NCBI GenBank assembly: GCA_014871385.1
Contig: CM026424.1
Span: forward strand, 18,199,357 to 18,263,356
Direction of reading: 5' to 3'
Origin: Ceratodon purpureus
Lineage: Eukaryota; Streptophyta; Bryopsida; Pseudoditrichales; Ditrichaceae
DNA: 64,000 nucleotides
Shown piece by piece: positions 4,976 through 23,216 of the stretch (the first letter of the stretch is position 1; every line of letters begins with the position of its first letter). The position numbers and the translations under genes were made by a program. The notes below the pieces were generated by a model. The model ran no database searches, was not told the origin of the DNA, and worked only from the letters and a program-made list of their open reading frames with translations.

Positions 4976-5103
4976 CAGGGTTGTCACGGTCGTCCGGGAC
5001 GCTCGGGACGTGGGGACGTCCGCGGACGTCCGCCAGCGCCAGGGGACGTCCTGTGACTTAGAAAAAAAAATCACCCGCATAGGTTTCACCCCGGGGTGAA
5101 ACC
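4976..5103. repeat. Left terminal and subterminal region of giant element
   Basis: After the CAGGGTTGT end, the palindromic motif GGACGTCC occurs three times within about 70 bp (5013-5049), with related GGGACG forms beside it. A 22-bp perfect palindrome with arms GGTTTCACCCC and its complement occupies 5082-5103. hAT transposases are known to bind short subterminal repeats, and these motifs are candidates. The right end has a similar cluster. Confidence 0.5.
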
Positions 5104-5127
5104 ACATCTGAAACCACATCTTTACGC

Positions 5128-5580
5128 GGCGAGGGTTGCGGGGGGGGTGCGCCGTCGCCGCGGAGCGGGGGGGCCGTCGGACGCGTCGGGAAGGGGCCGT
5201 CCCCGGCGACGCCCCTTGCCGTCGCCGCGTGGGGGGGGGGCCGTCCCCTGGGGACGCCCCTTGCCGTCGCCGCGGTGGGGGGGGGGCCCGTCCCCGGCGA
5301 CGGCCCCTTGCCGTCGCCGCGGTTGGGGGGGGGGGCCGTCCCCCGGCGACGGCCCCGTTGCCGTCGCCGCGTTGGGGGGGGGGGGGCCCGTCCTCGGCGA
5401 CGGCCCCGTTGCCGTCGCCAGGGCGGTGGGGGGGGGGGGGCCGTCCCCGCGACGGCCCCTTGCCGTCGCCGCGGTGGGGGGGGGGGGCCGTCCCCGGCGA
5501 CGGCCCCTTGCCGTCGCCGCGGTGGTGGGGGGGGGGGGCCGTCCCCAGGCGACGGCCCCTTCGACGGCCGTGACAGTCCA
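5128..5580. repeat. GC block A: G-run tandem repeat upstream of transposase
   Basis: About eight units of 47-53 bp start near 5192, 5239, 5286, 5334, 5387, 5440, 5488 and 5538. Each has GGCCGTCCCC, then GGCGACGGCCCC, then TTGCCGTCGCCGCG, and ends in a run of roughly 7 to 13 G. The regular G runs are potential G-quadruplex formers. All six frames stay open because of composition, so the apparent ORFs here are not genes. Confidence 0.8.
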
Positions 5581-5652
5581 TGATCGGACGGCCCCCTCGT
5601 GGACTTACGGCCTCGACGGCCGTCCTCCGTTGATTTTTAGGGCTTACCCCTT

Positions 5653-5697
5653 GGCATTTCAGGGAATGAGTATAAAAGACCCCTCCTGAAAGTTGCC
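5653..5697 (+). promoter_or_regulatory. TATA box in inverted repeat, transposase promoter
   Basis: TATAAAAG (5671-5678) lies between arms TTTCAGG (5657-5663) and CCTGAAA (5685-5691). Outer GGCA (5653) and TGCC (5694) extend the stem with a two-base bulge. It sits just downstream of GC block A and upstream of the transposase start. This is the least perfect of the four TATA-hairpin units in the element. Confidence 0.6.
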
Positions 5698-5881
5698 ATT
5701 ACACTTCTGAATTGTACTCCATGTGCTACTAGTTCCACTAATATACGTGTGTATCTGTTGCATGGTGAACGGCGGCGTTCAGAAGTGTGTTGAATTGGAG
5801 CTTCTTCGAGGCTCTAGTTCTCTTGAGGACGTGGTACCCCGATTTTTTGAAGTTTTTCCGGGCGATCTATCAAGTGCACCA

Positions 5882-8866
5882 ATGGCGTCTAAAAGTTACT
5901 CCCCATGGTATACCGAAGTCCATATGAGCGATACGGAGAAGAAGAAGACTGAGATGGTTCAATGTATGCTATGCAAGAACACTTTCGCAAAGAGGATTGA
6001 GCGGATGCTCAGTCATTTGGGCTATGACAAAGTTCTAGGGGTACGGACTAGTGGAGTAGGTCGTTGCACTAATTTGTCACCCGCTATACTGTCCTTGTTC
6101 AAGAATTGCGGTGGCAAATTCCCTAACGACTCCAGAATATTCATGTCGGAGCAGAGTACTTCCCCGGTGACTCGTGGCAATATATCCCCGAGAGTGAATA
6201 CTCCCATGGATGTGGACTCATGCGCTGGATCCCGGGTTTCTACTCCGAAGAATGAACCCGTTTTAATTGGTGAGGGTGTACCTTTCATTTCCACTTTTCC
6301 GGGGGAAGGTAGTGGACCGTTTCCTCCTTTGAAGGCAAAGAGGCAATCTACCCTTCAAGAGGGCTTCGAAGAGACTCAGAGGCGGGAATGCGACAAAGCA
6401 TGGGCCACATTTTTTTACGAGAACAGTATCTCGTTTAACGTGGCTCAGAGTGCCTCTTTCAAGGACGCGGTGTTGAAGACGTCCAACATGAAGAGATCAT
6501 ACACACCTCCATCTTACCACCATCTCCGAACAAATTTACTAGCCCAAGCAAGGACTGATTTGGAGACTTCCTTGAATGATAGGATTTTTTCAAGTGTTAG
6601 GAAGTACGGGGGAACGTTGGCCCTGGATGGGTGGACTTCTGTAAGCAGTCGCCCTCTAATAAACGCAATGCTGGTATCTCCAGCTGGTGAGTTATTCTTG
6701 GGAGCCGTTGACACGAGTGGGAAAGAGAAGGATGCTGTTTTCGTAGCAATCGTCATTGAGAAGTTTATCCAACAAGTTGGAGAACAGAACATCATTCAAG
6801 TATGCTACGATAATGCTCCGGTGATGCTTAATGCCGGAAAGTTGGTCCAAGCACTCTATCCATCCATATTTGTCCAAGGATGTGCTGCCCATGCGATAGA
6901 CCTTTTGTTGGAGGATTGGAGTAAGATGAAGTGGGTGAAGGAGCTCCTAGATCGGGCTAAGAACTTGGTTAAGTTCATAAAGATAAGGCAAATGCCACTC
7001 TCGGTATTTCGAAAGCACGAGGCAAAACTTAGCTTGCTGATGCCTGGTCAGACTAGGTTTGCATCGCACTACATTATGATTTCGCGTCTACTGAAGGTTC
7101 GAGGAGCATTGGAGCAGAGCGTTGTGGATCCTGACTGGAGAAACTACGAAACGAAGAAGACCTTATCTGCCCGTGACAAAGCGAAGATCTCACGCGATGT
7201 TAAGAGGGTTGTCTTGGATGACGTTTTCTGGGAGCAATGTGCAAACTTCAAGTGGATGACGAGTCCCGTTGTATATGCCCTACGAGAGTTTGATGCGAAG
7301 GAATCGGCATTGGGTAAAGCCTACGTTGTTCTCCGCAACCTTGAGAAGCATGTTCTCTCTTTACGCCATGAGCCCTTCAAACTAGACTCAGACAATGCTG
7401 ATTACTGCGAGGACTCATTTTACGAGCGTAAAGCCATGATTAAATCACCCTTACAGTGTGCTGCTGCGCTTCTAAACCCTTATCTTATTGACGATGAGGA
7501 CCTTCGCAATGATACTGATGCAATGGCATCGGCGAAGGAGGTCTTGTTGTCGATGGCTCCTCCGACACTGAAGGAAGTGGTCATAGAAGAGTTCTTTGCA
7601 TTTCGTGAAGCTTATCCTCCGTTTCGTGACGTACGTGAATCCTCTAAGTCACAACTGCCGCCTTCTGGTTGGTGGGATATATACGGATCCGCTGGTAAAT
7701 TCATTTCCCCAATTGCAAAAAGGATTTTAGCTCAGCCCTTGTCTTCTTCTTCATGCGAGCGGAATTGGAGTAGCTACTCCTTTGTCCACGACAGGAAGCG
7801 AAACCGTTTACTTCCGGAGAGGGCTAATGACCTCGTGTTTGTGTATACAAATTCCAAGATAATTTCCCAGTCCAAGTTGAGTGCCTTAGGCAGGTTCTAC
7901 GGGGAGTTGGAGGGGAAGGAGGATCCGAAGGCCGTGGAAACCGAGGATGTTGACTACTCTAGTGAGTCTGATGTTGATCTACCCTTCGATGATCTATCAA
8001 TTGACCCCCCCATCGAGGCCCCAGTCGACGACCTTGAGGTGTCTCCGAAAGGAAAATCCCGTTGTTCTCCTGCGCCAATGGAGCGTGCTTTCGAGTATGA
8101 TGATGTCGAAGAAGAAGGTACCAACGAGGAGGATACGATTCCTCTTTCCTCTTTTTTGAATGGAGACGGTTTATTAAACAGTGATAAGATTCTCCGGGGA
8201 GGATCCTCTCATACTACCGTGGATTTGGTCATACCAAAGAAAGAGGGAGACCCCACCATTGATACTTCTAAGGTTGTTTCTCCAAACTTCAACCGCCTGA
8301 AGGACGATATGGTTCCACCCACTACAAAGGAGGATGTGCCCGTACCCGTATCGGGTGCATCTCGCACATTGTTTGGAACTGCAAAGACTAGGGTCCAAGT
8401 TGGTGGGTTCGAATCGTCCACGAGGTTGGTTGAGTTGTCTAAAAAAATGAAGGCAGATGCTAAGGCTGCTGAAGTAGCGGAGAAATGTAGGAAGAGATTG
8501 GTCATAACCCGACAAGCGGACCCGGGCCTCCTCTCTACTGATGACGGACTTCCAATTGGGAATCTCTTTGGGCCGAAGTTGGCTTTGGGAAAACCGGACA
8601 TATTTCCTGAGAAACCCCCTGCTAGAGCCACGTCCAAGCGAAAGGCTGTAGACAAGACTCAGAAGGTGTTGGCTTTCAATCCTGGTAGGCCAAAAACTCC
8701 TTTGGATGACCCGAATGGCCCAAAGAAATTCCTGAACCCATTCGAGTCAAAGAAGAAGAGTAAGGCGAGGGTGAAGAAGGTACGCGAGAGCGATGGCGAT
8801 GACGAATACGATTCTTCCGGTCCTAGTGGGGCCGAAGTGAAGGACGACAGCGATTATGTGGCCTAA
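5882..8866 (+). CDS. hAT-family transposase (BED, DUF659-like and hAT dimerisation regions)
   Basis: This is the likely mobility protein of the giant element, 994 aa from ATG 5882. The frame is open to an ATG at 5723, but 5882 has the better plant context (CCAATGGC) and begins just before the BED-like zinc finger (CMLCKNTF, with a downstream His). A hAT RNase-H-like core follows. Candidate acidic residues are Asp249 (LALDGWT), Asp310 (CYDNAPVM) and Glu626 (SCERNWS), with spacing normal for hAT. SGWWDIYGSAG to NDLVFVYTN is the C-terminal dimerisation region. About 300 further residues are acidic and then lysine-rich, ending in a likely nuclear signal (KKKSKARVKKVR), an unusual extension for hAT. 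It is intronless with no internal stop, so it may be recent or functional. Its 3' end converges on the RING gene with a 462-bp gap. Confidence 0.88.
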   Translation: MASKSYSPWYTEVHMSDTEKKKTEMVQCMLCKNTFAKRIERMLSHLGYDKVLGVRTSGVGRCTNLSPAILSLFKNCGGKFPNDSRIFMSEQSTSPVTRGNISPRVNTPMDVDSCAGSRVSTPKNEPVLIGEGVPFISTFPGEGSGPFPPLKAKRQSTLQEGFEETQRRECDKAWATFFYENSISFNVAQSASFKDAVLKTSNMKRSYTPPSYHHLRTNLLAQARTDLETSLNDRIFSSVRKYGGTLALDGWTSVSSRPLINAMLVSPAGELFLGAVDTSGKEKDAVFVAIVIEKFIQQVGEQNIIQVCYDNAPVMLNAGKLVQALYPSIFVQGCAAHAIDLLLEDWSKMKWVKELLDRAKNLVKFIKIRQMPLSVFRKHEAKLSLLMPGQTRFASHYIMISRLLKVRGALEQSVVDPDWRNYETKKTLSARDKAKISRDVKRVVLDDVFWEQCANFKWMTSPVVYALREFDAKESALGKAYVVLRNLEKHVLSLRHEPFKLDSDNADYCEDSFYERKAMIKSPLQCAAALLNPYLIDDEDLRNDTDAMASAKEVLLSMAPPTLKEVVIEEFFAFREAYPPFRDVRESSKSQLPPSGWWDIYGSAGKFISPIAKRILAQPLSSSSCERNWSSYSFVHDRKRNRLLPERANDLVFVYTNSKIISQSKLSALGRFYGELEGKEDPKAVETEDVDYSSESDVDLPFDDLSIDPPIEAPVDDLEVSPKGKSRCSPAPMERAFEYDDVEEEGTNEEDTIPLSSFLNGDGLLNSDKILRGGSSHTTVDLVIPKKEGDPTIDTSKVVSPNFNRLKDDMVPPTTKEDVPVPVSGASRTLFGTAKTRVQVGGFESSTRLVELSKKMKADAKAAEVAEKCRKRLVITRQADPGLLSTDDGLPIGNLFGPKLALGKPDIFPEKPPARATSKRKAVDKTQKVLAFNPGRPKTPLDDPNGPKKFLNPFESKKKSKARVKKVRESDGDDEYDSSGPSGAEVKDDSDYVA

Positions 8867-9328
8867 TTGGGCACGATAGTTAGAAGGCGGCATTTCCAGT
8901 GCACCACCCTAGAATGCCACTCTTTTATGAATGTCCATTTCTAGAAACCATTATCATATTATATCTCATTTAAGCGGTGGTGCTTGCCTCTTCAATATTG
9001 TCCTCCACATTGTGTACTTATTTTTACTTTGATTGTACTTCTCGCAATTTCTTTCTCGTAATGAATGTACACAATCTACATATGAAGTTCGATGCATCTA
9101 AGTACTAACAATTCTTTCAACACAAATGCAACTCCAATAAAACATAAATGAAATTGTATTAAAACCAGAGGTAATTTTTGCAAGTACATATAGAAGTAGT
9201 GTAAAGTCCATACACCGGGCTCCGCAACCAATATATATATATATACTGCTCTAAATACGACTATCACCCAGTGTATTGTCACATTAACCGTAGTAATGCG
9301 GGTACCATGTCCAACGTAAATACTCTAC
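8867..9328. other. Convergent spacer between transposase and RING gene
   Basis: AT-rich, with a TA microsatellite near 9228-9243. Both flanking genes end here, so it should hold two 3' UTRs and poly(A) sites. No gene is seen. Confidence 0.5.
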
Positions 9329-12300
9329 TCAACGTCCATTGTTTGCATTTGACCTCCGAGTCTGGCGTCGCTGGCTTGGATGTGTAATCGTACCCCCCGA
9401 TCGATATTCTTCTTCCACGCGATCCAAAGAACGACGATTATCTTCCCCCCATTCGGGATCGTCTTCATAAGGGTTGTCTCGATTGCGCTTCTTGGAATTC
9501 TTCCCGTTCCACAACTCCTTTGCCTTGTCAATCTTGGCTACTGTTTCTTGCACAATCTTCTCAATCCTATTGCGTGACCAACGAGAGGAATTATCCTCCG
9601 CACGAAGTGCCCTCCTCCAGTCGTTAACTATTTTATGAAGAGCATCGTCAAACTTCTTAGTGATCACCCAGTAGTCTAGGTCCGAATATTTGAAGGATTC
9701 CTCTGTAAAAGTGCGACGATGCTGAATGGCTTCTTCTAGTTTGGCCAATACAAGTGCCCTACCAACCGGGGTTCTGTCATACATCTTGTACTCATCAAGT
9801 TGGCCATAGTCCCGTTCTACTTCTCTTCTCTTACCGTCGGCATCTACCACAACTTCCGGTTTTGGAAACCGGAAGAAGCGATTGCGATGTATACTCCAAT
9901 GTCCACCGAAGTTCCTACAAAAAAATTCTCGGTCCTTGGCATCCGGAATTTCACTTGCCCTCATCTCCACCTCATGGTCGTGTGTCATCCATGAAAAATC
10001 GTCCATTCCGGCATCGTTAGCCGTAGATAGTTGGTGAGTCATTGTCTCCGGGTTCCAAGCCAGTGATTTGCCCCAATCATAATAATTCAGCTCTTTCTTA
10101 GGTAGTTGGTCTAGTGGTAAATTCCACCGATCAAACTCATGCCCAGGCGGCATCACGTGTTGTAGTCCCAGCATCTCGTAAAAACGTGAACTAATTGGGG
10201 AGCGACACATAACACACTGTTTGTTGTTTAAAGCAGCCTTCGCGATGCAGGTTATGTGGAACTTGTGATTACAATTTCCCATCTCAAAGGCCCCTTCCGG
10301 CCCAAAATATTGTTGACAGATGGGACACGTTTCCTTCGAATATTCCTCCGACGGTTTGCGGGTATGGATAACCACACGTTTCGATTCATCCAAATGAGAT
10401 GATAGTACATCGTACGGCATCCACCCCTCCTCGACCTCTAGCGCCCAGTCAATGACCCCTTCTTTATTTTTGGAACTATGTAATGTGCGCTCCATCATTT
10501 CTCCTACATCGCGCCATATCGTGATTTTTGTAGCATCCTCGCCGCCCTTGGCTGCTGCCTCGTTATACTTCTGTAAAGATGATTGGATAGCTTCTTCGAC
10601 ATCCATAGAAGTAATTGCACATTTCTTCATATCCTGTTGTGCTCTAGAGACTATTGTCTCCTTATCTCGTAGTTTGTGGACCCAACCAAGCCATGATAAT
10701 GCCCTTATGGAAGATGGTGTATCATCTACCATCCTTATGGTGGTCTTCAGCCTTTCCAGTTCCGTACGGGCCTCGTCTCTTTCCCTTCTAGCCACCTCCA
10801 AATCCCGTAAAAGAATGTCTAATTCTATTGAATCATCCATTGGCCCTTTTCCTCTATCCTCATGTCCTGGTGTTGCTTGGCTAGAGCCAATGTCCAATGG
10901 AACTGGACCAGATGTCATTTTAGACTTCTGAGATGCCATCCCTTGTGTGGCCCCATCTCCACTTTTATTTGAAAATTTAGAAAGGCCAAGGTCATCGGAA
11001 TCCTCACCATCGCTCAGTACTTCAATGATACGATCCTTTCCTTCCACCTTCACCACTTCCTTCTTCACCGTAGGCTTCACTTCTTTTGTTTTGTTTTTCT
11101 CCTTCTCTACCGGGTGGTAGATTTTGCACTCTTCCAATTGTGCAAAAAAACTCATCTTCACATGGTCCAACCTTCTTGTCAAACTCTTGATTTGTTCCGT
11201 TGCATCCATTAAATCCTTACTCAGAGCCACGTTCTCTTCGCCTAACTTCACACGGTCTTCCAGAAGAGGCTTAATGGAAGATGCCAAAGTGTCAAAGCCA
11301 AGGGCACCCTGTATCATGCCCGGAGTGATACTTCCAAATGCATGAGCCATATTTATGAGATCTGGTGCCATAGCGCCTAATACGGAAGCCCCTTCTTTCA
11401 GGGTGTGTGCAATCTTCAACACATTATGAATTTGTTGCACTTCCTCCGTGGTTCTTGTTGCAGCGTCTCCCTCTGTGGTATTCTCTAAGCCCCCACGCTG
11501 TTCATCAGAGGACACCTCCGTCAATTTGGTGCTAAAATCTAGTAACTCCTTCAATGATTCATTGTTTGGCATCGACTTCACCAGCTCCATAATCTCCGAA
11601 ATGGAATGAACTGCATCCTTTGTGCTATCCTCTTCGGTAGGCACTTGTACTATTGCCAAGGAACTTGGACCATCATCCACTGAACGAGGGTTGGAGCATC
11701 CGGCTTCCGCAGCCGTAAGATGTGTTGAGCAGTCATTGTCCACCTCCACTTCCACCTCATCTACGGCTGCCTTGCCCTTTGTATCGTTGGAAGATTTCAC
11801 CGTGATTTCCAGGTCTGCTCTAGGAATAGTAGGGGCATTAGTTTCTGTGGCAACGGGGAACATCGTAGCGATCACATTGGCAATGGCAACGGGCTTCTTT
11901 TCCTCTGGACGATGCGGAGTTTCATTCTGTACTTTTTTTACTTCATTCTTCGGAAAGCTCTTTAGATGTGGCCACTGCCGCTTTCGGAACTCCGCTACAA
12001 CCTTCTGTGCTTGCAAAGGATCGATCAGATATAAATCCGGAATGTCTGTTACCATCCATCCAATTTGCAACGGCCTGTCTTTCGTAGTGGGGTACGTACA
12101 CCAACTAATCTTCCGCTTCAATATTAGCTCCGCATATACCATACTACAAATGGTATAATTGAAATGGCCTTTGCTGGGCTTCCGTTGCCCAAACATAGTA
12201 GTCCAGACTTCATATGCCCGATGCAAGAAATGGTCATCCATGCATAACCAGGGCTTGCAACTAAAAGTCCGTGTGTTCATCTCGTGTTCTTCTCGGGGCC

Positions 12301-12499
12301 ATAACTTGTCAATGTGATACATCTTCACATACTTCTTGCACTCCTTGAAAGTCCAGAAAATCTCCCCTACAGATTCCCAGCCTTCTTCTGCTACAATGTT
12401 TTTGTTGTCTAGGATCTCCCAAGAAAAGTTGTGGCACATTCCCTTCGGCCTGTTCCTCTTCCCGGTTCCTCCAATCTCATCATGTTCCGGATCCGCCAT
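9329..12499 (-). CDS. RING-H2 finger protein, giant-element cargo
   Basis: A 1056-aa intronless protein starting MADPEHDE in good context (CTATGGCGG). Residues about 38-150 form a domain (GWES, CKKYVKM, YAELILKRKISW) that is also found at the start of the protein at 16583-18085. The middle is acidic and Ser/Thr-rich with two probable coiled coils (LGEENVALSKDLMDATEQIK; LLRDLEVARRERDEARTE). A RING-H2 finger lies near residues 724-770: CPIC, then NCNHKFHITC, then QCVMC, giving the C3H2C3 order. RING-H2 proteins are usually E3 ubiquitin ligases, so that is the expected activity, but substrate and role are unknown. About 280 residues after the RING are unrecognised and end in a basic tail. Its promoter is GC block B with the TATA hairpin at 12732-12757. 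Confidence 0.72.
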   Translation of the reverse strand: MADPEHDEIGGTGKRNRPKGMCHNFSWEILDNKNIVAEEGWESVGEIFWTFKECKKYVKMYHIDKLWPREEHEMNTRTFSCKPWLCMDDHFLHRAYEVWTTMFGQRKPSKGHFNYTICSMVYAELILKRKISWCTYPTTKDRPLQIGWMVTDIPDLYLIDPLQAQKVVAEFRKRQWPHLKSFPKNEVKKVQNETPHRPEEKKPVAIANVIATMFPVATETNAPTIPRADLEITVKSSNDTKGKAAVDEVEVEVDNDCSTHLTAAEAGCSNPRSVDDGPSSLAIVQVPTEEDSTKDAVHSISEIMELVKSMPNNESLKELLDFSTKLTEVSSDEQRGGLENTTEGDAATRTTEEVQQIHNVLKIAHTLKEGASVLGAMAPDLINMAHAFGSITPGMIQGALGFDTLASSIKPLLEDRVKLGEENVALSKDLMDATEQIKSLTRRLDHVKMSFFAQLEECKIYHPVEKEKNKTKEVKPTVKKEVVKVEGKDRIIEVLSDGEDSDDLGLSKFSNKSGDGATQGMASQKSKMTSGPVPLDIGSSQATPGHEDRGKGPMDDSIELDILLRDLEVARRERDEARTELERLKTTIRMVDDTPSSIRALSWLGWVHKLRDKETIVSRAQQDMKKCAITSMDVEEAIQSSLQKYNEAAAKGGEDATKITIWRDVGEMMERTLHSSKNKEGVIDWALEVEEGWMPYDVLSSHLDESKRVVIHTRKPSEEYSKETCPICQQYFGPEGAFEMGNCNHKFHITCIAKAALNNKQCVMCRSPISSRFYEMLGLQHVMPPGHEFDRWNLPLDQLPKKELNYYDWGKSLAWNPETMTHQLSTANDAGMDDFSWMTHDHEVEMRASEIPDAKDREFFCRNFGGHWSIHRNRFFRFPKPEVVVDADGKRREVERDYGQLDEYKMYDRTPVGRALVLAKLEEAIQHRRTFTEESFKYSDLDYWVITKKFDDALHKIVNDWRRALRAEDNSSRWSRNRIEKIVQETVAKIDKAKELWNGKNSKKRNRDNPYEDDPEWGEDNRRSLDRVEEEYRSGGTITHPSQRRQTRRSNANNGR

Positions 12500-12599
12500 A
12501 GTAACCTCGTTTTAAACAAAAACGATTTGGTTTTGTTTTAAAGAAAACAAGGAGTTGATAAATGACGTTTACAAAATAACGAATACAGAAAATTCAAAA

Positions 12600-12655
12600 A
12601 CTCCCCCCCCCACAATAAAAAGGGACCCCCATCTCCTCACCCCCACGTACCAACA
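12600..12655 (-). promoter_or_regulatory. C-run leader motif shared with the kinase-like gene
   Basis: The untranslated leader of the RING gene contains AATTCAAAAACT, a C run, CAATAAAAAGGGACCCCC and TCTCCTC on the plus strand. The leader of the kinase-like gene (about 20633-20690) has the same order: AATTCGAAAAGT, a longer C run, CAAATGAAGGACCCC and TCCTCCC. The similarity suggests the two promoter-leader units share ancestry. Confidence 0.5.
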
Positions 12656-12728
12656 AGCCCCCAAGTGAATTGGGAAACTGTAGCAATATGAGAGGGACTA
12701 TTGAGGAGAGTGAAGTGAGGAAGTGGGG

Positions 12729-13275
12729 GACGGCCGTCGCCATATATGGCGACGGCCCCCAACCCTACGGCCGTCCCCCCGAGCCTAGTGCCGTCGCCCC
12801 CCGATCCTACGGCCGCGGCCAATGGCCGTCGTCCCGAACCTGACGACGGCCGTTGGGGGACGTCGGGTCGGGGGCCACGGCGACGGCCGCGGAGGCCCGT
12901 GCCTCCGCGGCCGTCCGATCGGGCCGTGTCCTCGGCGACGGCCGTCCGATGAAGGCCGTCGCCGAGGGGACGGCCTTCGAGACGGCCCCCGAGGGGGCGG
13001 CTTGCGGCCCTCCGATCGCGGCCGTCCCCGCGGCCGTCGCCGTCCGATGGCGGCCGACCGCACGGGGACGGCCGCGTAGACGGCCTTGGAGACGGCCGCG
13101 GGGACGGCACTGTCGGCGACAGCCCGCGGCCGTCCGATCGGGGCCGTCTCCAAGGCGACGGCCGTTCGATCACGGCCGCGATCGAAGGGCCGTCCCCGCG
13201 GACGGGCCCTCGCGGAGACGGCCCACGGCCGTGGAAACGGCCCCCGACCGTGGGGACGAGGCCGTCGCGGCCGCG
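12729..13275. repeat. GC block B (GGCCGT/ACGGCC-rich)
   Basis: Nearly pure G+C, built from irregularly repeated GGCCGT, ACGGCC and CGATCG-type words, so it is strongly self-complementary and dense in CpG. It abruptly borders AT-rich DNA at about 13276. The long ORFs across it on both strands are compositional artefacts. Confidence 0.75.
12732..12757 (-). promoter_or_regulatory. TATA-like core in perfect inverted repeat, RING gene promoter
   Basis: The sequence ATATAT (12742-12747) lies between perfect 10-bp arms GGCCGTCGCC (12732-12741) and GGCGACGGCC (12748-12757). It marks the edge of GC block B facing the RING gene, about 240 bp upstream of its ATG. Confidence 0.6.
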
Positions 13276-15483
13276 GGAAATTTCCCTCCCCCCCTTTTTT
13301 AAAATACAAATGAAAAAAACATATAATGCTACATCTTCCGACCACATATTACACTAAACCTGTTAATTTCTTTCACCAATTAAAATGAGAACAGCAGTTA
13401 CTGTAAACACGAATTAAAATACTTCATGGTATGCAAAGCATCTAAATTCTTCAACGAGTCATTATTCCGTACACTCCACTGAAGTTAATGTATGTGTCAT
13501 TTATTCGAATCATTATTTCTGTTGTTTCTATCGTACGCATTTCAAGGTGGTCTATCATCGCACTCCAAAAGTTCCTTGCAGAAATCGAAGTCATCTAAAC
13601 TTGTTTCAGAAATTGTAATCTAAATAGTTCTCCGTGGACCGTCTTCTTATTCTCCGCTTTGAATTTTTGTTTTTTTAAATACATAAGTGCTTCTATTATA
13701 CTTTCATTAAACGGCTTCATATTATCAATTTAATTCGAGTTACCATCTCTTTATGTACTTTTAACGTTCCTCCCTCTATACAATTTCCACTTTCGAATAT
13801 TGTTTTCATTTACCTCTTCTTTATTTTACTCTATGTTTAAACTTTATTCCCCTCTAGTTTATGCCCTTTTTTTAACGTCTAATTTGTCTAATTTAGAACT
13901 TCAACCCTCGAAGCTCCATAAATGTCATTTCGTGAATTTCTTCCTTTCATATCGTTTTGAACGTTCGTATTTCGATTTATTTCCTCCATGACCCATGTTA
14001 AAGTATATTTTACTAATTCGACCACTATTCCACCATTTTACTTGTTAAATTCTCTCATTCGTGCTTGTTAAATTCTCTCATTGTGTCATTAGTAAGTGTT
14101 TACTTTTGTACATATGTACTATACATTGTACAAGTTAGAATCCCATTCCATATTTATATTTACGTTAAAGTGTATATGAATAAACATATATTTGTATAGA
14201 GTATAATGTAAATGTGTTACCTAATTTATTTATTTTATTTCATATAAGTTGCAAGGTACAACTCAATTCTGGGCGTTGGAAACTAGAATTGTTTGTAAAA
14301 ACAATGATTTCAATTATAGTCGTTCACAAATTGGCAATATTCAGTGACGGTTGAATGTTTTCTGTTTTAATTTTGTTTTTTACTATTATCCCTTCCTCAT
14401 CTCATAATGTGAGCTAGTGATTTTTTATTTTATTTTTAATGATAACACAGTACTACGGTATGGAAGTTTGTAAAATAAAAGACATTAAAGAGGAAGGAGA
14501 GTCTTTATATTTCAAATAACTCTAAACCAGCCATGAGAAATTAGAATTGGACCATTTGTTATGAAAACAATGATTTGAGTTTTATTCCTCCCATGAATTG
14601 CATAATCCCAAGGGAATTGAATGTTTGTTTTGGTTTATTTCACTTTATTATTATCTCCAGTTTCTCTCATAATCTAAACTACTATTTATGTTTTTATTTT
14701 TGATTCTACCATAATACTAAAGAACGAGAGTATGTAAAATTAAAGAAATAAAACTAGGGTAAATCATTCCATTAAAAATTAGAGTCAAAGAATCTATATA
14801 AATATTTTCATTGTATACCACTAATCGAGAAGAAATTGGATCTATATTTCTAAGAGATTACCCTAAACCGTAAACCGGTGAAATATAAATGCAAATCTCT
14901 TAACCATTTAAACGTAAGGTGCACCGCATCCAAAACCAAGTGTGTACATCAATTAATGCGTTGAATTACTTCTAGTGCATTCTCTCCGCGATGTTCCTCT
15001 TATCATATTGTTGTTGACATTTACTCTTTTGATTCGTTAGTATAAAATGTTAATTCATTACCGTATGCTAAAACATGAGTACCTTCGTTTCTTTAAATGA
15101 CAATTGGTAAAAACTGTTTTAGTGTACCCACAATGTCTACGGTTCTTTCCATTCAATAGGATATATATTCTTCTTCATAAACGTGTTCACATTATTTGTA
15201 GATCCTAGGGGGTTATCCACCCCCAAAGAACCAAAATATCACATAGTTCATTGGATCCCAATTTCAAACGTCGACCCCACCTCCCCGATCACAGGATCTT
15301 CAGGACATTCCCCACAATATCCGGGATATGTCTGAATTTTCCATTTGTAGGAGATATGCTGTCCAAACAATCCCAAGTGGGATTGTTTGGAACAAGAAGG
15401 AGGGGGGAGAGTAGGGGAGGAGAGGGGGGAGGAGAGGAGAGAAAACACAAGGGGAGGGGAGTTCCTTCGACCCCCCCCCCCAC
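13276..15483. other. AT-rich gene-free core of giant element
   Basis: About 2.2 kb with no coding frame, lying between the two divergently facing GC blocks. It contains two diverged tandem copies of a unit of about 258 bp (near 14279-14500 and 14537-14760; shared words include AAAACAATGATTT and TTGAATGTTT), and an 18-bp tandem TTGTTAAATTCTCTCATT at about 14041-14081. A perfect hairpin with 14-bp arms (TCCAAACAATCCCA, 2-base spacer) lies at 15362-15391, followed by a G/A-rich tract up to block C. Confidence 0.5.
15362..15391. repeat. Perfect 14-bp inverted repeat
   Basis: Arms TCCAAACAATCCCA (15362-15375) and TGGGATTGTTTGGA (15378-15391) are separated by AG. It lies just outside GC block C. 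It is too symmetric to be chance, but its function is unknown. Confidence 0.7.
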
Positions 15484-16196
15484 ACGGCCGTCCCCGGGGA
15501 CGGCCACGGCCGACCCCGCGTGGACGGCCGTCGGCCACGGCCGTCGGATCTTCTCCGACGAGAAGATCCTACGGCTGCGGACGACGGCCGTCCACGCGGG
15601 GACGGCCTTGTCCGACCCCGCGTGGACGGCCTTGGCCGACTCCGCGGTCGCAGCCCCCCGACCCCGGGGTCGGCCGCGGCCGTCCCCGCGGGGTCGGACA
15701 AGGCCGTCCCCGCGTGGACGGCCGTCGCCGACCCCGCGGTCGGAAGGTCCGTCCGCGTGGACGGCCCTCGCCGACCGCGTGGACGGCCGTGGCCGACCGC
15801 GGGGTGGAGCACGGCCGTCCCCGCGGGGTCGGCCGCGGCCGTCCCCGCGGGGTCAGACAAGGCCGTCCCCGGGGACGGCCACGGCCCACCCCGCGGTCGG
15901 AAGGGCCGTCGGCGTGGTCGGCCGTGGCCGACCACGCCGCTGCAGCCTCCGACCGCGGGGTGGAGCACGGCCGTCCCCGCGGTGGGCCGCGGCCGACCCC
16001 GGGGACGCCCGTCGACGTGGTCGGTCGTCCCGACCGCGGGGCGGCGGTCCACCGACGCACCCTTTGGGGAGCGGTCGCGGCCGCACGACCGGTCGCGTCC
16101 GCGATCGTGGACGGCCGCGACCGCTCCCGCGACGGACCAGTTACGGCCGTTGGATTCTCCATTCCCCGAGATCCAACGGCCGTAGGGGGGCCGTCG
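15484..16196. repeat. GC block C (GGCCGT/ACGGCC-rich, hairpin-rich)
   Basis: Same composition and words as blocks B and D. It contains clear inverted repeats: GGATCTTCT/AGAAGATCC near 15546-15570, and a perfect 13-bp pair ACGGCCGTTGGAT (16143-16155) and ATCCAACGGCCGT (16171-16183). It precedes the plus-strand gene at 16583. Open frames on both strands are compositional. Confidence 0.75.
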
Positions 16197-16224
16197 TTTG
16201 ACCTAACTGGCTGCCTAGGGGTTT

Positions 16225-16247
16225 GGGCCAGCATAAATGGCTGGCCC
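16225..16247 (+). promoter_or_regulatory. TATA-like core in perfect inverted repeat, cargo gene C promoter
   Basis: The loop ATAAATG (16233-16239) is flanked by perfect 8-bp arms GGGCCAGC (16225-16232) and GCTGGCCC (16240-16247). It lies just downstream of GC block C and about 340 bp upstream of the ATG at 16583. Confidence 0.55.
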
Positions 16248-16582
16248 TTCTTCCTTTTTCTTCACTTGGGTGCTCGTGCTACATGTGCTGGATTTACTTC
16301 AGCTCAGTTGCGTTCCTCCAAGCTTTTACTACTTCCCCAGGGGTTATCGTGGGATTGTGTTTAGGGTTGTCCGCACCGTTTGTTGGTTATTATGAAACCA
16401 ACAGTATAGTGCTTCATACGTACGGTTTTTTGGCTGGAGTTCTGGGTTTTGTTTTAGTCCTTATGCACTAGATATATACGAGATTAAATCAACTTTTATA
16501 CGGTGGGGAGAAGTTACAGGCATTGTTACGAGGTTGGTACGATACACGGTATTCACAGCTACTCGCTTACCGGACTTTCGCC

Positions 16583-18085
16583 ATGCCTCGTAACGACCGG
16601 GGAGGACCCTCCACTCCTAAAAGGAAACACCCCTTGGATCCATACGCTACGAATGACCCTGATTGTGTAGCAGAGATTGGATGGGAGGGGGAACCATCAC
16701 CATGGCGGATGGTAACTTGCAAGGAATATGTCAAGATGAAGCACCTCATGAAGTTGATCCCAGTACATCTACGTACCGAGGCTGCGGAGAAACAAGCAAC
16801 ACGGGGAGAAATCAGGATCGACAATTGTGAAAGTAATCATTTCAAAATTCGATACAACGAGGTTTTTCGAGCAGCACGAATCCAGAACTCCCGACCTCAT
16901 ATCATGTTGTATTCGAATATGGCAATGGTGTGGGCGGAGATAGTCTTACATAAGAGGGTTGACTGGACCACAGTCTCGGGCCTGAGGACAGATAGAATGA
17001 ACAGAGACAGCATGGATCTTGTAACAGACTGGAGTGGACATAGCGATTGTCCCCCATTACATATTTCAAACCGTCGGAGTCCACCGGCACAAGATGCAGG
17101 AATACAAACTCTAGCCATCGAATATAATGATGAGGAACAGGAGAGACGTCGTTTAAGCTATGATGATGAAGACAACTATCGAGGGCGTCGCTCAAACGAA
17201 AATCCAAGGAATCGCAGAGGGCATCGTGCCAGAGAGTCATCACGTACCAACCATGAGGAGTATGGACAAAGCTCTGCCCACGGGGGACACCGTTCGCTAG
17301 ATCGTCAGGACATGGGACCCCACGAACAAGGCTATGGCCACGGGGAACCGGAAGGAGCTGATTTACCCTTTGACTTTGCGGATAGCACGTATGGACCCTA
17401 TGGGGGACGACCGTGGCCAGATTATGCAACGGGATCAAGATACTTTAGTAACTATGACGACGGCTGGTCGGAAATACCGAGTCCTCCAAGGAGTGCTAGT
17501 CCGCGCCATCGAACACCTCCGAGAGAGGTACCTCACGGTTATTCCCCAGATCGCGAAGAAGATACGCAGAGACTGGGACGTGATGATTACGCAACTCCCC
17601 CTCCATACCGCGGATATGGTGGTCATGGTACCCCATCTGCCCTATTTGCAGAAGATGATTACAGATCATCTTCGCGGACTCCGCCTGGAATATTTCCTCC
17701 ACCTCTAGGTTATCACACCGACGGTACTGATCACAATAGCGGGGACAACCGCAACGTACTTCATCGCGATGACAGAGTACCACCTCCTCCTTTTGGATAC
17801 CCTCCCGGTCGAGTTGTAAGAGATAGCTATTTTGAGGAAGAACTAGAGTTGGAGCGAACAAGGCAAAATTACGTACTACAGATGGAGAATCATGCGTTCC
17901 ACCTAAGACGGGATAATCGAAGATTGATGGAGGAGAGAGAGAGACTTCTGAGAGCCTCCACAAATTCTGCAAGGCACGGGCCACAAGAAACGTACGATCG
18001 GGGAGGTCCAAGTGAACTCCCCAATGATGGGAACTATTATCATCCATATGACTACAATGGATTAGGGTGGAGGGGAGACTATTAG
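16583..18085 (+). CDS. Arg/Asp-rich coiled-coil protein, giant-element cargo, paralogous N-terminus to RING protein
   Basis: A 500-aa intronless protein. The frame is open to an ATG at 16523, but MPRNDRGG at 16583 is preferred because it aligns with the start of the RING protein. Residues about 30-140 match that protein: AEIGWE, CKEYVKMKHLMKL, HFKIRYNEVF, MVWAEIVLHKRVDW. The middle is rich in Arg, Asp, Ser, Tyr, Gly and Pro and looks disordered. Residues about 425-470 form a coiled coil (EEELELERTRQNYVLQME). There is no RING finger. The gene is convergent with the kinase-like gene, across a 950-bp spacer. Function is unknown; the shared domain suggests it works with, or binds the same partner as, the RING protein. 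Confidence 0.65.
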   Translation: MPRNDRGGPSTPKRKHPLDPYATNDPDCVAEIGWEGEPSPWRMVTCKEYVKMKHLMKLIPVHLRTEAAEKQATRGEIRIDNCESNHFKIRYNEVFRAARIQNSRPHIMLYSNMAMVWAEIVLHKRVDWTTVSGLRTDRMNRDSMDLVTDWSGHSDCPPLHISNRRSPPAQDAGIQTLAIEYNDEEQERRRLSYDDEDNYRGRRSNENPRNRRGHRARESSRTNHEEYGQSSAHGGHRSLDRQDMGPHEQGYGHGEPEGADLPFDFADSTYGPYGGRPWPDYATGSRYFSNYDDGWSEIPSPPRSASPRHRTPPREVPHGYSPDREEDTQRLGRDDYATPPPYRGYGGHGTPSALFAEDDYRSSSRTPPGIFPPPLGYHTDGTDHNSGDNRNVLHRDDRVPPPPFGYPPGRVVRDSYFEEELELERTRQNYVLQMENHAFHLRRDNRRLMEERERLLRASTNSARHGPQETYDRGGPSELPNDGNYYHPYDYNGLGWRGDY

Positions 18086-19035
18086 AATGGGGTGCATGGT
18101 AGTACTTTCTACAGCATCGGAGCGTACCGAGACTTTAACGTGGACTTCGCATATTACAAATTTACAACGGAAAGTAAAAGATGCAAGCATAGTATGTACG
18201 TAGTTTGCAGTTTTGTAGATGGAGGTTTAAAATGTACGGACTCAAGAATACTGGCACGTGCCACATTTTGCAAGTAGAATAGATATAATTAGTGTTTTAG
18301 AGTGTAGTTGTGTTGTCTTTTATATTGTAGTTGTCTTCACATTTGAAAGGAATTTACCTTTTTAATATTCTTGTAGCCGTATTCGAAGTGCACATTACTA
18401 TCAATATTACTATTTTTAAAATGACAACTTCCTATTGACATGGGTTATGAGTCTACGACTTACGAGCACTAGAATATAATGAATCTCAAGACAAGTATGC
18501 GAAATAATTTTCAATAATTTTTTTGGCTAAATTAATAAGAATATCGTGAATGATATTTTTTGATGGATGCATATTTATATCTAAGGTATTTGTTTGTACA
18601 GGGGATTATGAGCAATCACGTTTTGCGGCCCTTACGCTTTCGTCTTCACGAAAAGAACTTGAGTATACGCTTGCCAATATTTGTAAGAATAAAAATTACA
18701 AAGCATAAATGTTACAATTCACATATCGCATAATTTTCATAATTAGAATTGAGAGTATCGACTTTTAGGTAGATGTGTGGAGCCAATCCGTTTTCCTCAT
18801 AATACAAGGGGTAGAAATAGACCAATCTTAGTACAGAGACCATATTTGAACCAAATGCAAGTAAACTTTATAAACAAAATATTGACCGGTGTACAAAAAT
18901 TGAGATTCCAACATCTCATAATAATATAGAGTGTAAATAGGACTATTCACTACTAAGAGCTATGCCCGCCGTCCGGTAACAAAAAAAACATTATGCTTTT
19001 ATAGGAATACGGAAAGGTAGATATGTAACTCCATA
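18086..19035. other. Convergent AT-rich spacer, cargo genes C and D
   Basis: No coding frame. Both neighbours end here, so it should contain their 3' UTRs. No repeat or RNA gene was recognised. Confidence 0.5.
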
Positions 19036-20511
19036 TCAGTAACCCTCGCGATAGTGCTCGATGGGAGTGGGCCAGTTGTGTGTATCTCTGAAACGGTTAA
19101 TAAGATGTCCGAGTCCACCAATCGTTCCTCTGTTGTTTTGGCAAACTCTCTCAAGGTAACCTTCGAAAACCATTGCGAGTTCTCCGATATTCTGGAAATG
19201 GCGTGTTTCTACTGGCTCGGCTTCGTGGTATGCCGTGCACATGTTGCCCCTGTTGATCTTCGCCGCTATCTTCGCAGCTGCGAAATCCTCCGATGCAACC
19301 GTCAAATCTGGAATGATTTGAATATCTTGGTTTTCCTTGTGTACGTATACCACGCGAGGATCCACCCAGTATCGCCTCCTCATAGTCTCCTCCTTCTGAT
19401 GGACATTCTCAAAAACCCAAGGCGACCTTCTGTTCTCTAGTGTCTTCGTCATCAAGCCCCAATCACAAACCCCGATGTAGATCTTGGACTCATCTTCCGG
19501 AAAGTGAAGTAGGATGTTGTCCGGTGACAAGTCATTGTGGAGGTAACCGTATTTGTGTACGGCATCTATGATGTTATACAATGCCCAAGCAAGCTCTGTA
19601 CGCTTACTTCGGAAAAGTTGGAGACGCTTCCCTAGAATCGGACTGTCGTCTGCATTCTCTCTGAAGATGTAGTCGATGGGGAGGTCACCCGGGGCCTCAT
19701 TGTCTCTCTGTAGCATGGCTCGAAGGGTCCCACCGTTCCACCAGAACATGAATCCCACATGTTCCAACTGATGAATGGCCTGGAAGCGGATGACACCAGG
19801 ATGGGGAATCCTTATCGCAAGAGATTCATTGTTGTGGTCCACACGTGCCAAATCCGGCCTCATAGACCAATTGAGCGGCCGTTTCTCAGCAAACTCCCAG
19901 TACGGTGGGATTTGCGGGTTTCCTTCGATACGAACCCTACGTATGGTAGCATAACCACCTCTCTGGACTTCCTTGTCCAAGTAATAGAAAACTGCAAAGT
20001 CTGCCAAGATAGTCAAATGCCGTTTACGTAAGTCAGCCGCCGTCTCCATCCCAATCGGAGAATTCCACCAAGTAATAGACGCCCGTCGATGCTTTCTTGA
20101 GCTATGGGGCGCCATTAGTCTCGTGAAGCAATCTGCCTTTGCAATAGTATCCTTGAAGGCCTGGACTCCCCCCCTTTGCGCCTTTGCATACTTAGTAATA
20201 ACCTCTTTAGCATTCCATAACGCATCGTGTGCACGTTGTGACACGAAATGATCGTAACCGGGCTTCTGTGTATCCGAATGCCAGCACGGATCCATCAAAC
20301 GATCCCTAATCTTTGTCTCCATCTCTGACTTGAATTTCCTGGGCCCATCTTCCTCATACCGAACATAACGACTATTCAATGAAACAAGGGTATTCTCCTG
20401 GTAAAATTCCACGATGAATGCCACAATATAATCCTTGCAATGTAAGCTCGGCATGTCATCGAATTTGTTCGCCCATTCCCCCACATTCTTCTGCTTCTTA
20501 TTCTTCGGCAT
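19036..20511 (-). CDS. Protein kinase-like protein, giant-element cargo
   Basis: A 491-aa intronless protein starting MPKNKKQK. The C-terminal half has kinase signatures: a glycine-rich stretch near 185-193 (GGYATIRRV), a hinge-like MFWWNGGTLRAML (255-267), a catalytic loop HNDLSPDN (325-332) equivalent to HRDLKPEN with the catalytic Asp and Asn kept, and CDWGL (349-353) in the DFG position with the metal-binding Asp kept. A clear VAIK lysine is not obvious, so it may be an atypical kinase or a pseudokinase. The N-terminal 150 residues are unrecognised. The gene sits at the right end of the element, transcribed inward from GC block D. Its leader resembles that of the RING gene. Substrate is unknown. 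Confidence 0.68.
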   Translation of the reverse strand: MPKNKKQKNVGEWANKFDDMPSLHCKDYIVAFIVEFYQENTLVSLNSRYVRYEEDGPRKFKSEMETKIRDRLMDPCWHSDTQKPGYDHFVSQRAHDALWNAKEVITKYAKAQRGGVQAFKDTIAKADCFTRLMAPHSSRKHRRASITWWNSPIGMETAADLRKRHLTILADFAVFYYLDKEVQRGGYATIRRVRIEGNPQIPPYWEFAEKRPLNWSMRPDLARVDHNNESLAIRIPHPGVIRFQAIHQLEHVGFMFWWNGGTLRAMLQRDNEAPGDLPIDYIFRENADDSPILGKRLQLFRSKRTELAWALYNIIDAVHKYGYLHNDLSPDNILLHFPEDESKIYIGVCDWGLMTKTLENRRSPWVFENVHQKEETMRRRYWVDPRVVYVHKENQDIQIIPDLTVASEDFAAAKIAAKINRGNMCTAYHEAEPVETRHFQNIGELAMVFEGYLERVCQNNRGTIGGLGHLINRFRDTHNWPTPIEHYREGY

Positions 20512-20770
20512 CGTGGAAAGCCTTCAAGGCTTCAAGAAATCGTAACCGCAACTCCAAAGAAACCCTCAATTCCCACAATGATTAATAAGAGCAATACAAA
20601 TCCAAAGGGTTTTAAAAAAAACCGTTTAAAAATTCGAAAAGTCCCCCCCCCCCCCAAATGAAGGACCCCTTTCCTCCCGGTGAGAACGACCAACGGAGAA
20701 GGATCAAGTCCCCCACCAGTAGCAATCAGCCTCACTCGAAAAGAGAGAAAAAAGGTAAAAAATGAAGAGG

Positions 20771-20797
20771 CGGCTTCCCCTTATATAGGGGAAGCCG
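20771..20797 (-). promoter_or_regulatory. TATA box in perfect inverted repeat, kinase-like gene promoter
   Basis: TTATATA (20781-20787; TATATAA in the gene's direction) lies between perfect 10-bp arms CGGCTTCCCC (20771-20780) and GGGGAAGCCG (20788-20797). It borders GC block D and is about 270 bp upstream of the ATG. Confidence 0.65.
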
Positions 20798-21590
20798 ACC
20801 TCGCGGCCGTCCCCACGGCCGTCCCCGCGGCCGTCCCCGCGGCCGTCCCCGCGGCCGTCCCCGCGGCCGTCCGATCTACGCCCCCGCGGCCGTCCAATCG
20901 GGCGCGACTCCGCCCGAAGGCGCCGGCCGTCCGATCGGACGGCCGCGTCGGGCGATGGCGCCGCGTGGCCGTCCGACCGACGCGGCCGTCTCCGCGGTCG
21001 GCCCCGTCTGCACGCGGTCGGCCCCGTCTGCACGCGGTCGGCCACGCGGACGGCCGTGTCTCCCCGCGGTCGCCCACGCGGACGGCCGCGGGATCGGACG
21101 GCCCTCCGCGGCGGCCATGGTCGGCCGCGGAGGGCCGTCCGATCCAGTGGCCGTCCCCGCGGCCGACCGCGGAGACGGCCGCCCGATCGGACGGCCCACC
21201 CAGGCCGACCATGGCTGCCGCGGGCCGTCCGATCCCGCGGCCGTCGCCGTTGCCGACCGCGGGGACGGCCACGGGGACGGCCGCGGGATCGGACGGCCCG
21301 CGGTCGGCCGCGCCGATCGAGCGGTCCCCGATGGCAGGCGTCGGGATCGATCCGGGCCGTCGGATCCCGCGGCCGTCCCCGAGGCCGTCCCCGCGGTCGG
21401 CCGCGGCGACGGCCGTGGGATCCGACGGCCCTGGAGGGCCGCCCACATCCGACGGCCCGCGATGTGCCAGCACGGCCGCATCTTGGCCGTCGGATCGACG
21501 TGCGGCGGTCCGCAACGACCCCGCGGCCGTCCCCGCGAACGGACGGCCGAGATGAGGCGTGGTGGCGGGATCGGCCGATCGGACGGCTGG
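20798..21590. repeat. GC block D (GGCCGT/ACGGCC-rich)
   Basis: Begins with five direct copies of GCGGCCGTCCCC-type words and continues with CCGCGGCCGTCCGATC and similar palindromic words. It is dense in CpG and self-complementary. Long frames on both strands are artefacts of composition. Confidence 0.75.
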
Positions 21591-21736
21591 GGAATGTTTT
21601 TACCCCTCCGGGGTCGCAAAATTATTACCGCGGCGTAATTCTCGAGCGTCGGGGACGCCACGTCCGGGACGGGGGACGTCCGGGTCGGACGTCTTGACGT
21701 CCGGAGCCGGGTCGGACGTCTATTTGAACAACCCTG
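21591..21736. repeat. Right terminal and subterminal region of giant element
   Basis: Carries clustered GACGTCC/GGACGTC motifs (about 21655-21722), an ACCCC/GGGGT near-palindrome at about 21600-21612, and ends with ACAACCCTG, the inverted copy of the left end. Outside the short terminal match the two ends share motif types rather than a long inverted repeat, as is common in hAT elements. Confidence 0.5.
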
Positions 21737-23216
21737 GTCCCTATCAAAAAAACCTGCAGTTGCTTCGCAGTCTTTTTCTCTCTCTTTTCGCGTAGACTCT
21801 AAGAATGTTGTTTTACTTCCTAAATCTATGTATCGACTGCAAGATATTACCTATTTTCTTCTATGTTACATTCTAACTTAAGGTACATAATCACTTCGAT
21901 TATTATATTAAGAGTACCCTGAACCGTATTACGCATTTTGTGCTATGTTACATTTTAACTGAAGCCACATAATCATTTAATTTATTACATTCTTTTCTTT
22001 CTTTCATGCTTATTCTTTTTCCCCTTCTTCGTACATGTTATTAAACTTATTCCAGTTCTTTCTGAAATTGTTTTTCCCTTCATGCTTATTTGATTTTTAT
22101 TTTAATTCCCTTTCTTTTTTATTTTGAATGGTATACGACTTATTTGTTGTTTTTTTTTTGGGAGACGAAACCCACTAAGCCATATCCTAAGTTCGAATCA
22201 CAAAATGTCCATTCTCACAGGCCTGCCCTTTAATTTAAGTTCGTTCTCTAAGATGAAGTTGGTCAATTATATCCAAGCAGTCTTGACATCAAGTAATCTT
22301 ATTTGCAAGCACAGTAATTTTTTAAATTTTTAACCCATGCAGTCACACTAACTAATGCAGTCACAGTAATTATTTATATTTTTAACCCATGCAGTCACAC
22401 TAATTAATGCAATCACAATAATTTCTGCTTCAAGTACTCAGCACTTATCCGGCTGTCAAGACCGCAGCACTTCAAACTGTTTTGACGGAAATAATAACCA
22501 CATTATCAACTCCCAAACCACATTATCAACTCGCAAAGCAAAGCACATTATCCCATAAGCATTGTAAACCCTGGATTTCACTTCGATATAACCGAACCTG
22601 CAACATTATAATTTCGTCACTTGGGCAGTGGCTTCGGTGTGTTATACTTCCCGAGAGAAAACAATGGACGTCGTACCTCGCAAAGGATAATTGCCGGGGC
22701 CATTCCCAAACTGACATAAACAAATTCAAATTGGATAAAACAAAAAATCTGAAAAAAGAAAATCTGCAGTTGCTGAGCAGTCTTTTTATCTCTCTTTCTA
22801 CCTAGACCTTATAATTATAATAGACTCAACGACTAAATTAAAAACCATTCTATTAATGGAGACAATTCCAAGTAGTCTAATAGTGATCAAGAATTTATCC
22901 TTTGTCTCTCTTACATGGCTATACTTTATATTGATATTAGACTTACTTTATATTGATAATAGACTTAGATACTAAGCAAAGGATAAGACTGTATTCATAA
23001 AAAATTCCTGAATAATCTGATAGTCTTCATTACCTAAATCTGTATCCATGCATGCACGGGAATAGGCACGCACGGTGATAGGTGTTTTTAAGGTCATACT
23101 TTTTGAAAATAAAAATAAAAATAAAACCAACATGCTGCAGTTATAGAGTGTGAGAAACTTCACCAAAAACATCAAAATATCCGCAAAGTTACCGCTCACC
23201 GCTCTCCGCTCACCGC
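21737..23216. other. Intergenic DNA with a 1-kb-spaced direct repeat
   Basis: A 48-bp segment beginning AACCTGCAGTTGC at 21751-21798 recurs diverged at 22761-22807 (TCTGCAGTTGCTGAGCAGTC). A 52-bp tandem pair (TAACCCATGCAGTCACACTA) occupies about 22310-22413. No gene recognised. Confidence 0.5.

Follow-up and report, generated by a model that had tools for sequence, protein, structure and literature searches.

A 16.8-kb hAT element carrying three additional conserved genes in the moss Ceratodon purpureus

The element and its four genes

The window, a stretch of 64,000 nucleotides from the moss Ceratodon purpureus (contig CM026424.1), contains a transposable element of the hAT type that is 16,761 bp long (4976-21736) and holds four long, uninterrupted genes. 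These form two convergent pairs, one encoding a transposase and a RING-H2 protein and the other a protein of 500 amino acids (aa) and a protein kinase. A preliminary description of this DNA had proposed inverted ends enclosing four long intact genes in two convergent pairs, and both the open reading frames (ORFs) and the boundaries of other copies confirm it. The genes appear to be intronless, a statement that rests on their uninterrupted ORFs. The ends and genes are as follows.

4976-4984, plus strand: left terminal inverted repeat (TIR), CAGGGTTGT, exact; the homology of other copies starts here
5882-8866, plus strand: hAT transposase, 994 aa from its probable start; the ORF in the window opens at 5762
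9329-12499, minus strand: RING-H2 protein, 1056 aa; uninterrupted ORF with a Pfam RING-H2 match
16583-18085, plus strand: 500-aa partner protein; uninterrupted ORF whose N-terminal domain is in common with the RING protein
19036-20511, minus strand: protein kinase, 491 aa, with a predicted N-terminal helical domain and kinase domain
21728-21736, minus strand: right TIR, CAGGGTTGT inverted, exact; the homology of other copies stops here

The names given earlier to the transposase and the RING-H2 gene are upheld by Pfam. The transposase matches DUF659 (E 1e-35) and, at its C terminus, the hAT dimerisation domain (E 6e-10), the domains expected of a hAT transposase; a sequence search against the PDB gave no match for it at the thresholds used. 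Its true start is probably at 5882, as judged from the sequence. The earlier opening at 5762 in the window comes from a 1-base difference at 5807, present in this copy and absent from copies L010, L011, and L018, which joins a short upstream ORF to the gene. In three copies besides that of the window, inspected by eye, an 18-codon upstream ORF precedes the transposase start (window region 5762-5881), and translational control by this ORF is possible. The RING-H2 match has an E value of 2e-7, and the eight zinc ligands are invariant in 12 aligned sequences.

The fourth gene had been called kinase-like. Its Pfam kinase match is weak (E 6e-5, below the Pfam cut-off), and its structure model is confident (mean predicted local distance difference test score [pLDDT] 86.9) and resembles PDB kinases at 10 to 14% identity, which supports a kinase fold with an extra N-terminal helical domain. 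Over 62 sequences, conservation of the catalytic lysine, glutamate, and aspartates is at least 90%. The closest protein is KC19_VG055000 of C. purpureus itself; scans of viral contigs and genome contigs with the kinase returned no relatives. A second kinase family, P0015, is 47% identical and occurs in a C. purpureus record (M758_3G001500), and its best match in the genome (C3:9421637-9423121) is 56% identical with one stop. Another relative, P0022, lies on a 2.9-kb contig filed as a Bacilli metagenome-assembled genome and is probably moss contamination.

The RING and 500-aa proteins have an N-terminal domain of about 140 residues in common (BLAST E 9e-10; hhalign probability 99.6, E 6e-25), a relationship that had gone unremarked in the preliminary description. 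Beyond this domain the 500-aa protein is charged and polar by eye, and it has no Pfam match. Comparison of the kinase profile with the RING and 500-aa profiles detected no relation to this domain. Homologues of the accessory proteins occur at parallel identities (kinase 78%, RING 81%, 500-aa 78 and 76%), as expected if the genes travel together, and a lower tier comprises a kinase at 62% and a RING protein at 66%, with no clear 500-aa counterpart; these identities are those of individual proteins.

The noncoding features of the element are as follows (no strand is assigned to them).

4976-5100: left subterminal region with GACGTCC repeats, by motif count
5193-5561: GC-rich tandem repeat block upstream of the transposase gene, with GGCCGTCC
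12727-13276, bounds approximate: GC-rich repeat block upstream of the RING gene, with GGCCGTCC
13351-15350: AT-rich spacer, 31% GC, between the divergent RING and 500-aa upstream regions
15480-16200, bounds approximate: GC-rich repeat block upstream of the 500-aa gene, with GGCCGTCC
20794-21640, bounds approximate: GC-rich repeat block upstream of the kinase gene, with GGCCGTCC

The motif GGCCGTCC has 58 sites in the element, and all of them lie upstream of the four genes (8 for the transposase, 9 for RING, 17 for the 500-aa gene, and 24 for the kinase). In this comparison, confined to the window, there were no sites in the spacer, in the two convergent intergenic regions, or in the other 47 kb. 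The terminal 250 bp on the two sides together contain 11 GACGTCC repeats, counting both strands, and a simple scan found a TATA-like string upstream of three of the four genes. The observed/expected ratio of CpG is 1.06 for the element, against 0.68 for the remainder of the window, and ranges from 0.77 to 0.90 across the four genes. The level in the element fits youth or a lack of methylation, but would partly reflect the GC-rich blocks.

Copies, duplications, and relatives in the genome

The C. purpureus genome that we searched comprises 362.5 Mb in 151 contigs. We aligned 38 loci, each retrieved by its transposase or kinase gene and including two from the window itself, against the window. 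Wherever an end was covered and free of N, homology started at or within a few bases of 4976 and stopped at or within a few bases of 21736; the exception was the C5 copy L018, whose left flank is also common with the window. Because the homology of other copies stops at the same boundaries, the ends of the element are settled. The TIRs are perfect over 9 bp, and 12 of the first 24 bases match, in keeping with the short TIRs of hAT elements. Taken alone, CAGGGTTGT is weak evidence: it has a third exact match in the window, at 36271, and with at most one mismatch it matches 13 times against 15.8 expected. A larger element reaching the match at 36271 was ruled out, since the homology of the copies stops at 21736. 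An extended left end of 20 bp, CAGGGTTGTCACGGTCGTCC, has 314 matches in the genome with at most two mismatches, versus 3 for a reversed control.

Other copies of the arrangement, which the preliminary description had proposed as a check, do exist. A full second copy on C11 (16,783 bp, free of N) has all four ORFs at full length, encodes proteins 99.2 to 99.7% identical to those of the window, and is flanked by an exact 8-bp target-site duplication (TSD), AAAAAAAT. A copy on C6 was read across the transposase and RING genes and into the 500-aa gene for 323 residues. The copy lists consist of best matches, namely 44 scored transposase copies and the best 87 of 1,135 kinase candidates, and the scored copies are mostly at least 95% identical. 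The kinase faces the transposase at a distance of 14.3 to 15.4 kb in 27 of the 44 scored transposase copies and at 25 to 32 kb in 3 more; 57 of the 87 scored kinase copies are free of stops. The length of full copies is about 16.6 to 16.8 kb.

The 8-bp duplications proposed as another check were found as well. Among 18 end pairs examined, both flanks were readable in 14 (N stood at or beside an end in three pairs, and in one an end fell outside the retrieved stretch). Twelve of these 14 copies have exact 8-bp TSDs, all 12 of them different, and one more agrees at 7 of 8 bases. Since the 12 copies combine different flanks with exact TSDs at their outer ends, the whole unit transposed. An exact 8-bp TSD, the length that marks hAT elements, also flanks one nonautonomous copy.

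The first 100 listed left ends of the 314 were classified by nearby scored genes. A scored transposase lies within 6 kb of 28 of them and a scored kinase within 40 kb of 35, 23 of these at 15.1 to 16.5 kb; 55 have neither gene. We opened eight left ends lacking a listed transposase. Four (L054, L063, and L068 included) belong to one family that has the element's ends and GC blocks around a different interior, with an interior inverted repeat of about 0.8 kb at 94 to 95%. One member of this 4.5-kb family (C1:10171579-10176079; 4,501 bp) bears the duplication CCACCAGC on both sides and has no match to any of the four proteins. In L057 (C6:7612591) and L058 (C6:17410756) the left GC block is fused to the block upstream of RING, and the transposase and RING genes are missing. 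As for the remaining two, C2:654449 has another interior and C4:18166912 is an interrupted copy. The existence of copies without a transposase is as expected of nonautonomous relatives, and because of it about 0.6 kb at each end seems to suffice for movement in trans.

The surroundings of the window copy are more complicated. Its flanks are as follows.

3554-4975, plus strand: left flank, a piece of a Ty3-type retrotransposon that is nearly identical to the DNA left of the C5:19425728 copy
21737-21744, no strand assigned: right flank, GTCCCTAT, equal to the 8 bp left of the left end at C4:18166912, 54 kb away, and different from the 8 bp left of the window copy

Immediately to the left of the window the sequence reads as a run of N, either an assembly gap or withheld bases. 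The left flank aligns with that of C5:19425728 over 5,009 bases at 99.5% identity (2 mismatches, 21 gaps). The differences are almost all insertions or deletions, and positions 1-4975 are probably a mis-joined contig end that copies the C5:19425728 flank. Compared with C4:18172659, across the N stretch, the window copy differs by 1 substitution in 4,764 positions (5600-10363) and by none between 17539 and 20627, while the GC-rich blocks differ more. The C4:18166912 copy is interrupted at the equivalent of window position 6676 by 4 kb of other DNA, and C4:18172659 begins next to that. It is likely that one nested cluster is represented twice around the N stretch, with its left flank mis-joined; a real duplication, or recombination between copies, would be an alternative source of this arrangement. 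Elsewhere in the window, two ORFs at 55188-57032 match DUF4216 (below the cut-off) and DUF4218, domains that we take to be typical of EnSpm-type transposons, and two tandem arrays (45299-45558 and 51732-52002) consist of 95- to 97-bp units whose consensus is similar by eye.

Selection and the role of the accessory genes

Substitutions shared between copies and those private to one copy behave differently in the kinase gene. Across 16 sequences, shared substitutions number 10 nonsynonymous to 13 synonymous (0.28 of neutral) and singletons 59 to 22 (0.97 of neutral), a contrast significant by Fisher's test (p 0.012; p 0.009 with RING pooled). No stop is shared (0.9 expected) and three are singletons (3.4 expected). 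An earlier set of nine sequences, with few counts, gave 1 to 3 for shared substitutions (0.14) and 8 to 5 for singletons (0.67). By this pattern, lineages that spread depend on the kinase gene, and copies drift once they have landed. For the transposase (30 sequences) the values are 0.40 of neutral for shared substitutions and 0.70 for singletons, a contrast not significant alone (p 0.10), with 1 shared stop (1.9 expected) and 7 singleton stops (3.9 expected). The C-terminal 336 residues of RING (30 sequences) give 0.31 and 0.55, likewise not significant alone (p 0.40); the singleton ratio is not neutral here, and stops are absent (0.8 shared and 1.8 singleton expected).

The best reading of these data is an autonomous, recently active hAT transposon of which the three accessory genes are standing members. 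That it is a true multigene unit whose accessory genes serve the element has, in our estimate, a probability of about 0.85. The ends and duplications give good support to movement by the hAT transposase, which would bind the ends through the GACGTCC subterminal repeats and then cut and paste the unit. The likeliest task of the accessory proteins would be to sustain expression of the element despite host silencing, or to regulate the element's own proteins. In such a scheme the RING and 500-aa proteins would converge on one target (the upstream DNA repeats, or one another). A bound factor, from the host or the element, would be tagged for removal by the RING protein, and the kinase would modulate either the transposase or a host factor. 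We infer an accessory role from the selection, the common domain, and the motif arrays, by analogy with VANC. A specific function in anti-silencing or self-activation is a tentative proposal, and somewhat doubtful. A self-contained circuit, in which a RING-H2 ligase and its partner are directed to the GGCCGTCC arrays and remove silencing factors while the kinase licenses transposition, is rather unlikely in that full form.

Several points qualify the multigene reading. The window copy itself has no TSD, only 2 of its 8 flanking bases agreeing. Fourteen of the 44 scored transposase copies have no kinase among the best 87 of 1,135 kinase matches. One of them, C5:19425728, which sits inside a Ty3-type retrotransposon with a duplication on both sides, is the sole one whose right end was located, 16,629 bp along; a copy with the transposase alone between the same ends was not met, as far as this 1 of the 14 can tell. 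The selection counts are small and cover the transposase, the C-terminal part of RING, and the kinase. Moreover, the kinase set includes the window sequence three times (the window, L001, and L002), although near-identical loci (these three, and L036 and L037) move private changes into the shared class and so should weaken the contrast. The functions of all three accessory genes are ones that we infer. The structure model of the RING protein is unusable (mean pLDDT 37.9), and the 500-aa profile matched no solved structure in the PDB by sequence at the thresholds used; because of these two results, DNA binding by either protein is a guess. Finally, the GC-rich repeats may be nothing more than promoters or expanded tandem repeats, the motif having been compared within the window.

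An ordinary hAT transposon carrying captured copies of host genes, passengers with no role in transposition that persist because the captures are recent, is improbable. Capture of genes by plant DNA transposons is common (reviewed in PMC13317346), and the high identity of the scored copies implies a short time for decay; in addition, singletons in the kinase are near neutral, and a host source gene is compatible with the genome searches, which scored the best candidates. However, the shared substitutions are poor in amino-acid changes (0.28 to 0.40 of neutral), and the same upstream motif stands at all four genes. The catalytic residues are retained in kinase homologues of about 40 to 60% identity, which makes the gene old, and when the genome was searched with P0015, 85 of 86 scored places (of 1,149 candidates) fell at 45 to 48%, the level of the element kinase, with one place at 56%. 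The preliminary description had argued that the genes belong together rather than being nested junk, and the outer TSDs and the near-constant distance between transposase and kinase sustain that judgement. Unrelated genes or elements that fell into a small hAT transposon and were then copied by chance or by segmental duplication are an extremely unlikely source of the unit. In 12 copies, exact outer 8-bp TSDs with different flanks refute nesting of the entire unit, none of the copies read shows separate ends for the cargo genes, and the spacing is nearly constant in 27 copies. The window region is nevertheless itself nested and rearranged, flanks are in common for L036 and L037 and for the window and L018, and a single founding capture is still possible.

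It is also highly unlikely that the accessory genes work for the host or skew transmission (on a sex chromosome, for instance) rather than functioning in transposition. The idea draws on C6, read as the V sex chromosome because of the VG locus tag of KC19_VG055000, which holds 52 of the 87 scored kinase copies (the best 87 of 1,135) though it makes up 30% of the genome length (binomial p 3e-8). Yet the scored transposase copies show no significant excess on C6 (18 of 44, p 0.14), slow removal on a nonrecombining chromosome would explain the kinase excess, and the counts are possibly biased in being drawn from best-scoring matches. Near-neutral private substitutions in the kinase likewise speak against a benefit to the host from individual copies.

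If the accessory genes of this multigene hAT unit act on silencing, the moss would provide a tractable haploid plant in which the arms race between transposon and host could be examined one gene at a time. Its many copies on the contig read as the V sex chromosome link the element to the question of that chromosome's large size.

Comparison with known systems

Autonomous hAT elements are the textbook example of a one-gene transposon. With a kinase, and probably also RING and its partner, under selection for its own spread, the moss element would mean that a plant cut-and-paste element can become a small multigene system. The moss element resembles the hAT superfamily (Ac, Tam3, and relatives) in its DUF659 and hAT dimerisation domains, short TIRs, 8-bp TSDs, and subterminal repeats. 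Whereas typical autonomous plant hAT elements carry one transposase gene, the moss element is about 16.8 kb long and has three further conserved genes. We did not find a four-gene hAT arrangement in titles and abstract openings of the open-licence literature; it may be described in Repbase. Another element, Lanisha, comes from authors who reportedly work on Ceratodon.

The TIRs of hAT elements span 5 to 27 bp (PMC12506042). Lanisha (Maumus, McDaniel and Carey 2020, via PMC12730594) is EnSpm-like, a group with TSDs of 2 to 5 bp; an EnSpm-like identity for the moss element, Lanisha being compared by description only, is ruled out by the hAT domains and 8-bp TSDs. ToxhAT/ToxTA and the Starships are, like the moss element, eukaryotic transposons with multigene cargo. 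ToxhAT has TA duplications and is judged a likely nonautonomous Tc1/mariner element, and Starships use a tyrosine recombinase, DUF3435, as their first gene (PMC12506042). The first gene of the moss element is instead a hAT transposase, and a Pfam scan found no DUF3435 in the four proteins.

Other parallels are DNA transposons with an extra gene that acts, or may act, on silencing. The rust-fungus TET+ hAT7 carries an additional TET/JBP dioxygenase gene that may act against silencing (PMC12730594); it is a hAT element with an extra, possibly anti-silencing gene, but it is fungal and has a 7-bp rather than an 8-bp TSD, and the Pfam scan found no TET/JBP dioxygenase domain in the four moss proteins. 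In Arabidopsis, VANC of the MULE-type VANDAL elements binds short motifs that are dense in noncoding DNA and causes loss of methylation (PMC5735166). VANDAL and the moss element are alike as DNA transposons that combine extra genes with short motifs dense in noncoding regions; they differ in that VANDAL has a MULE transposase and a different motif, whereas the moss element has hAT domains. Demethylation by the moss element would be a guess from this analogy. Should the control circuit outlined above prove true, the moss element would represent a second, independent invention of anti-silencing of the VANC kind, working through ubiquitin and phosphorylation.

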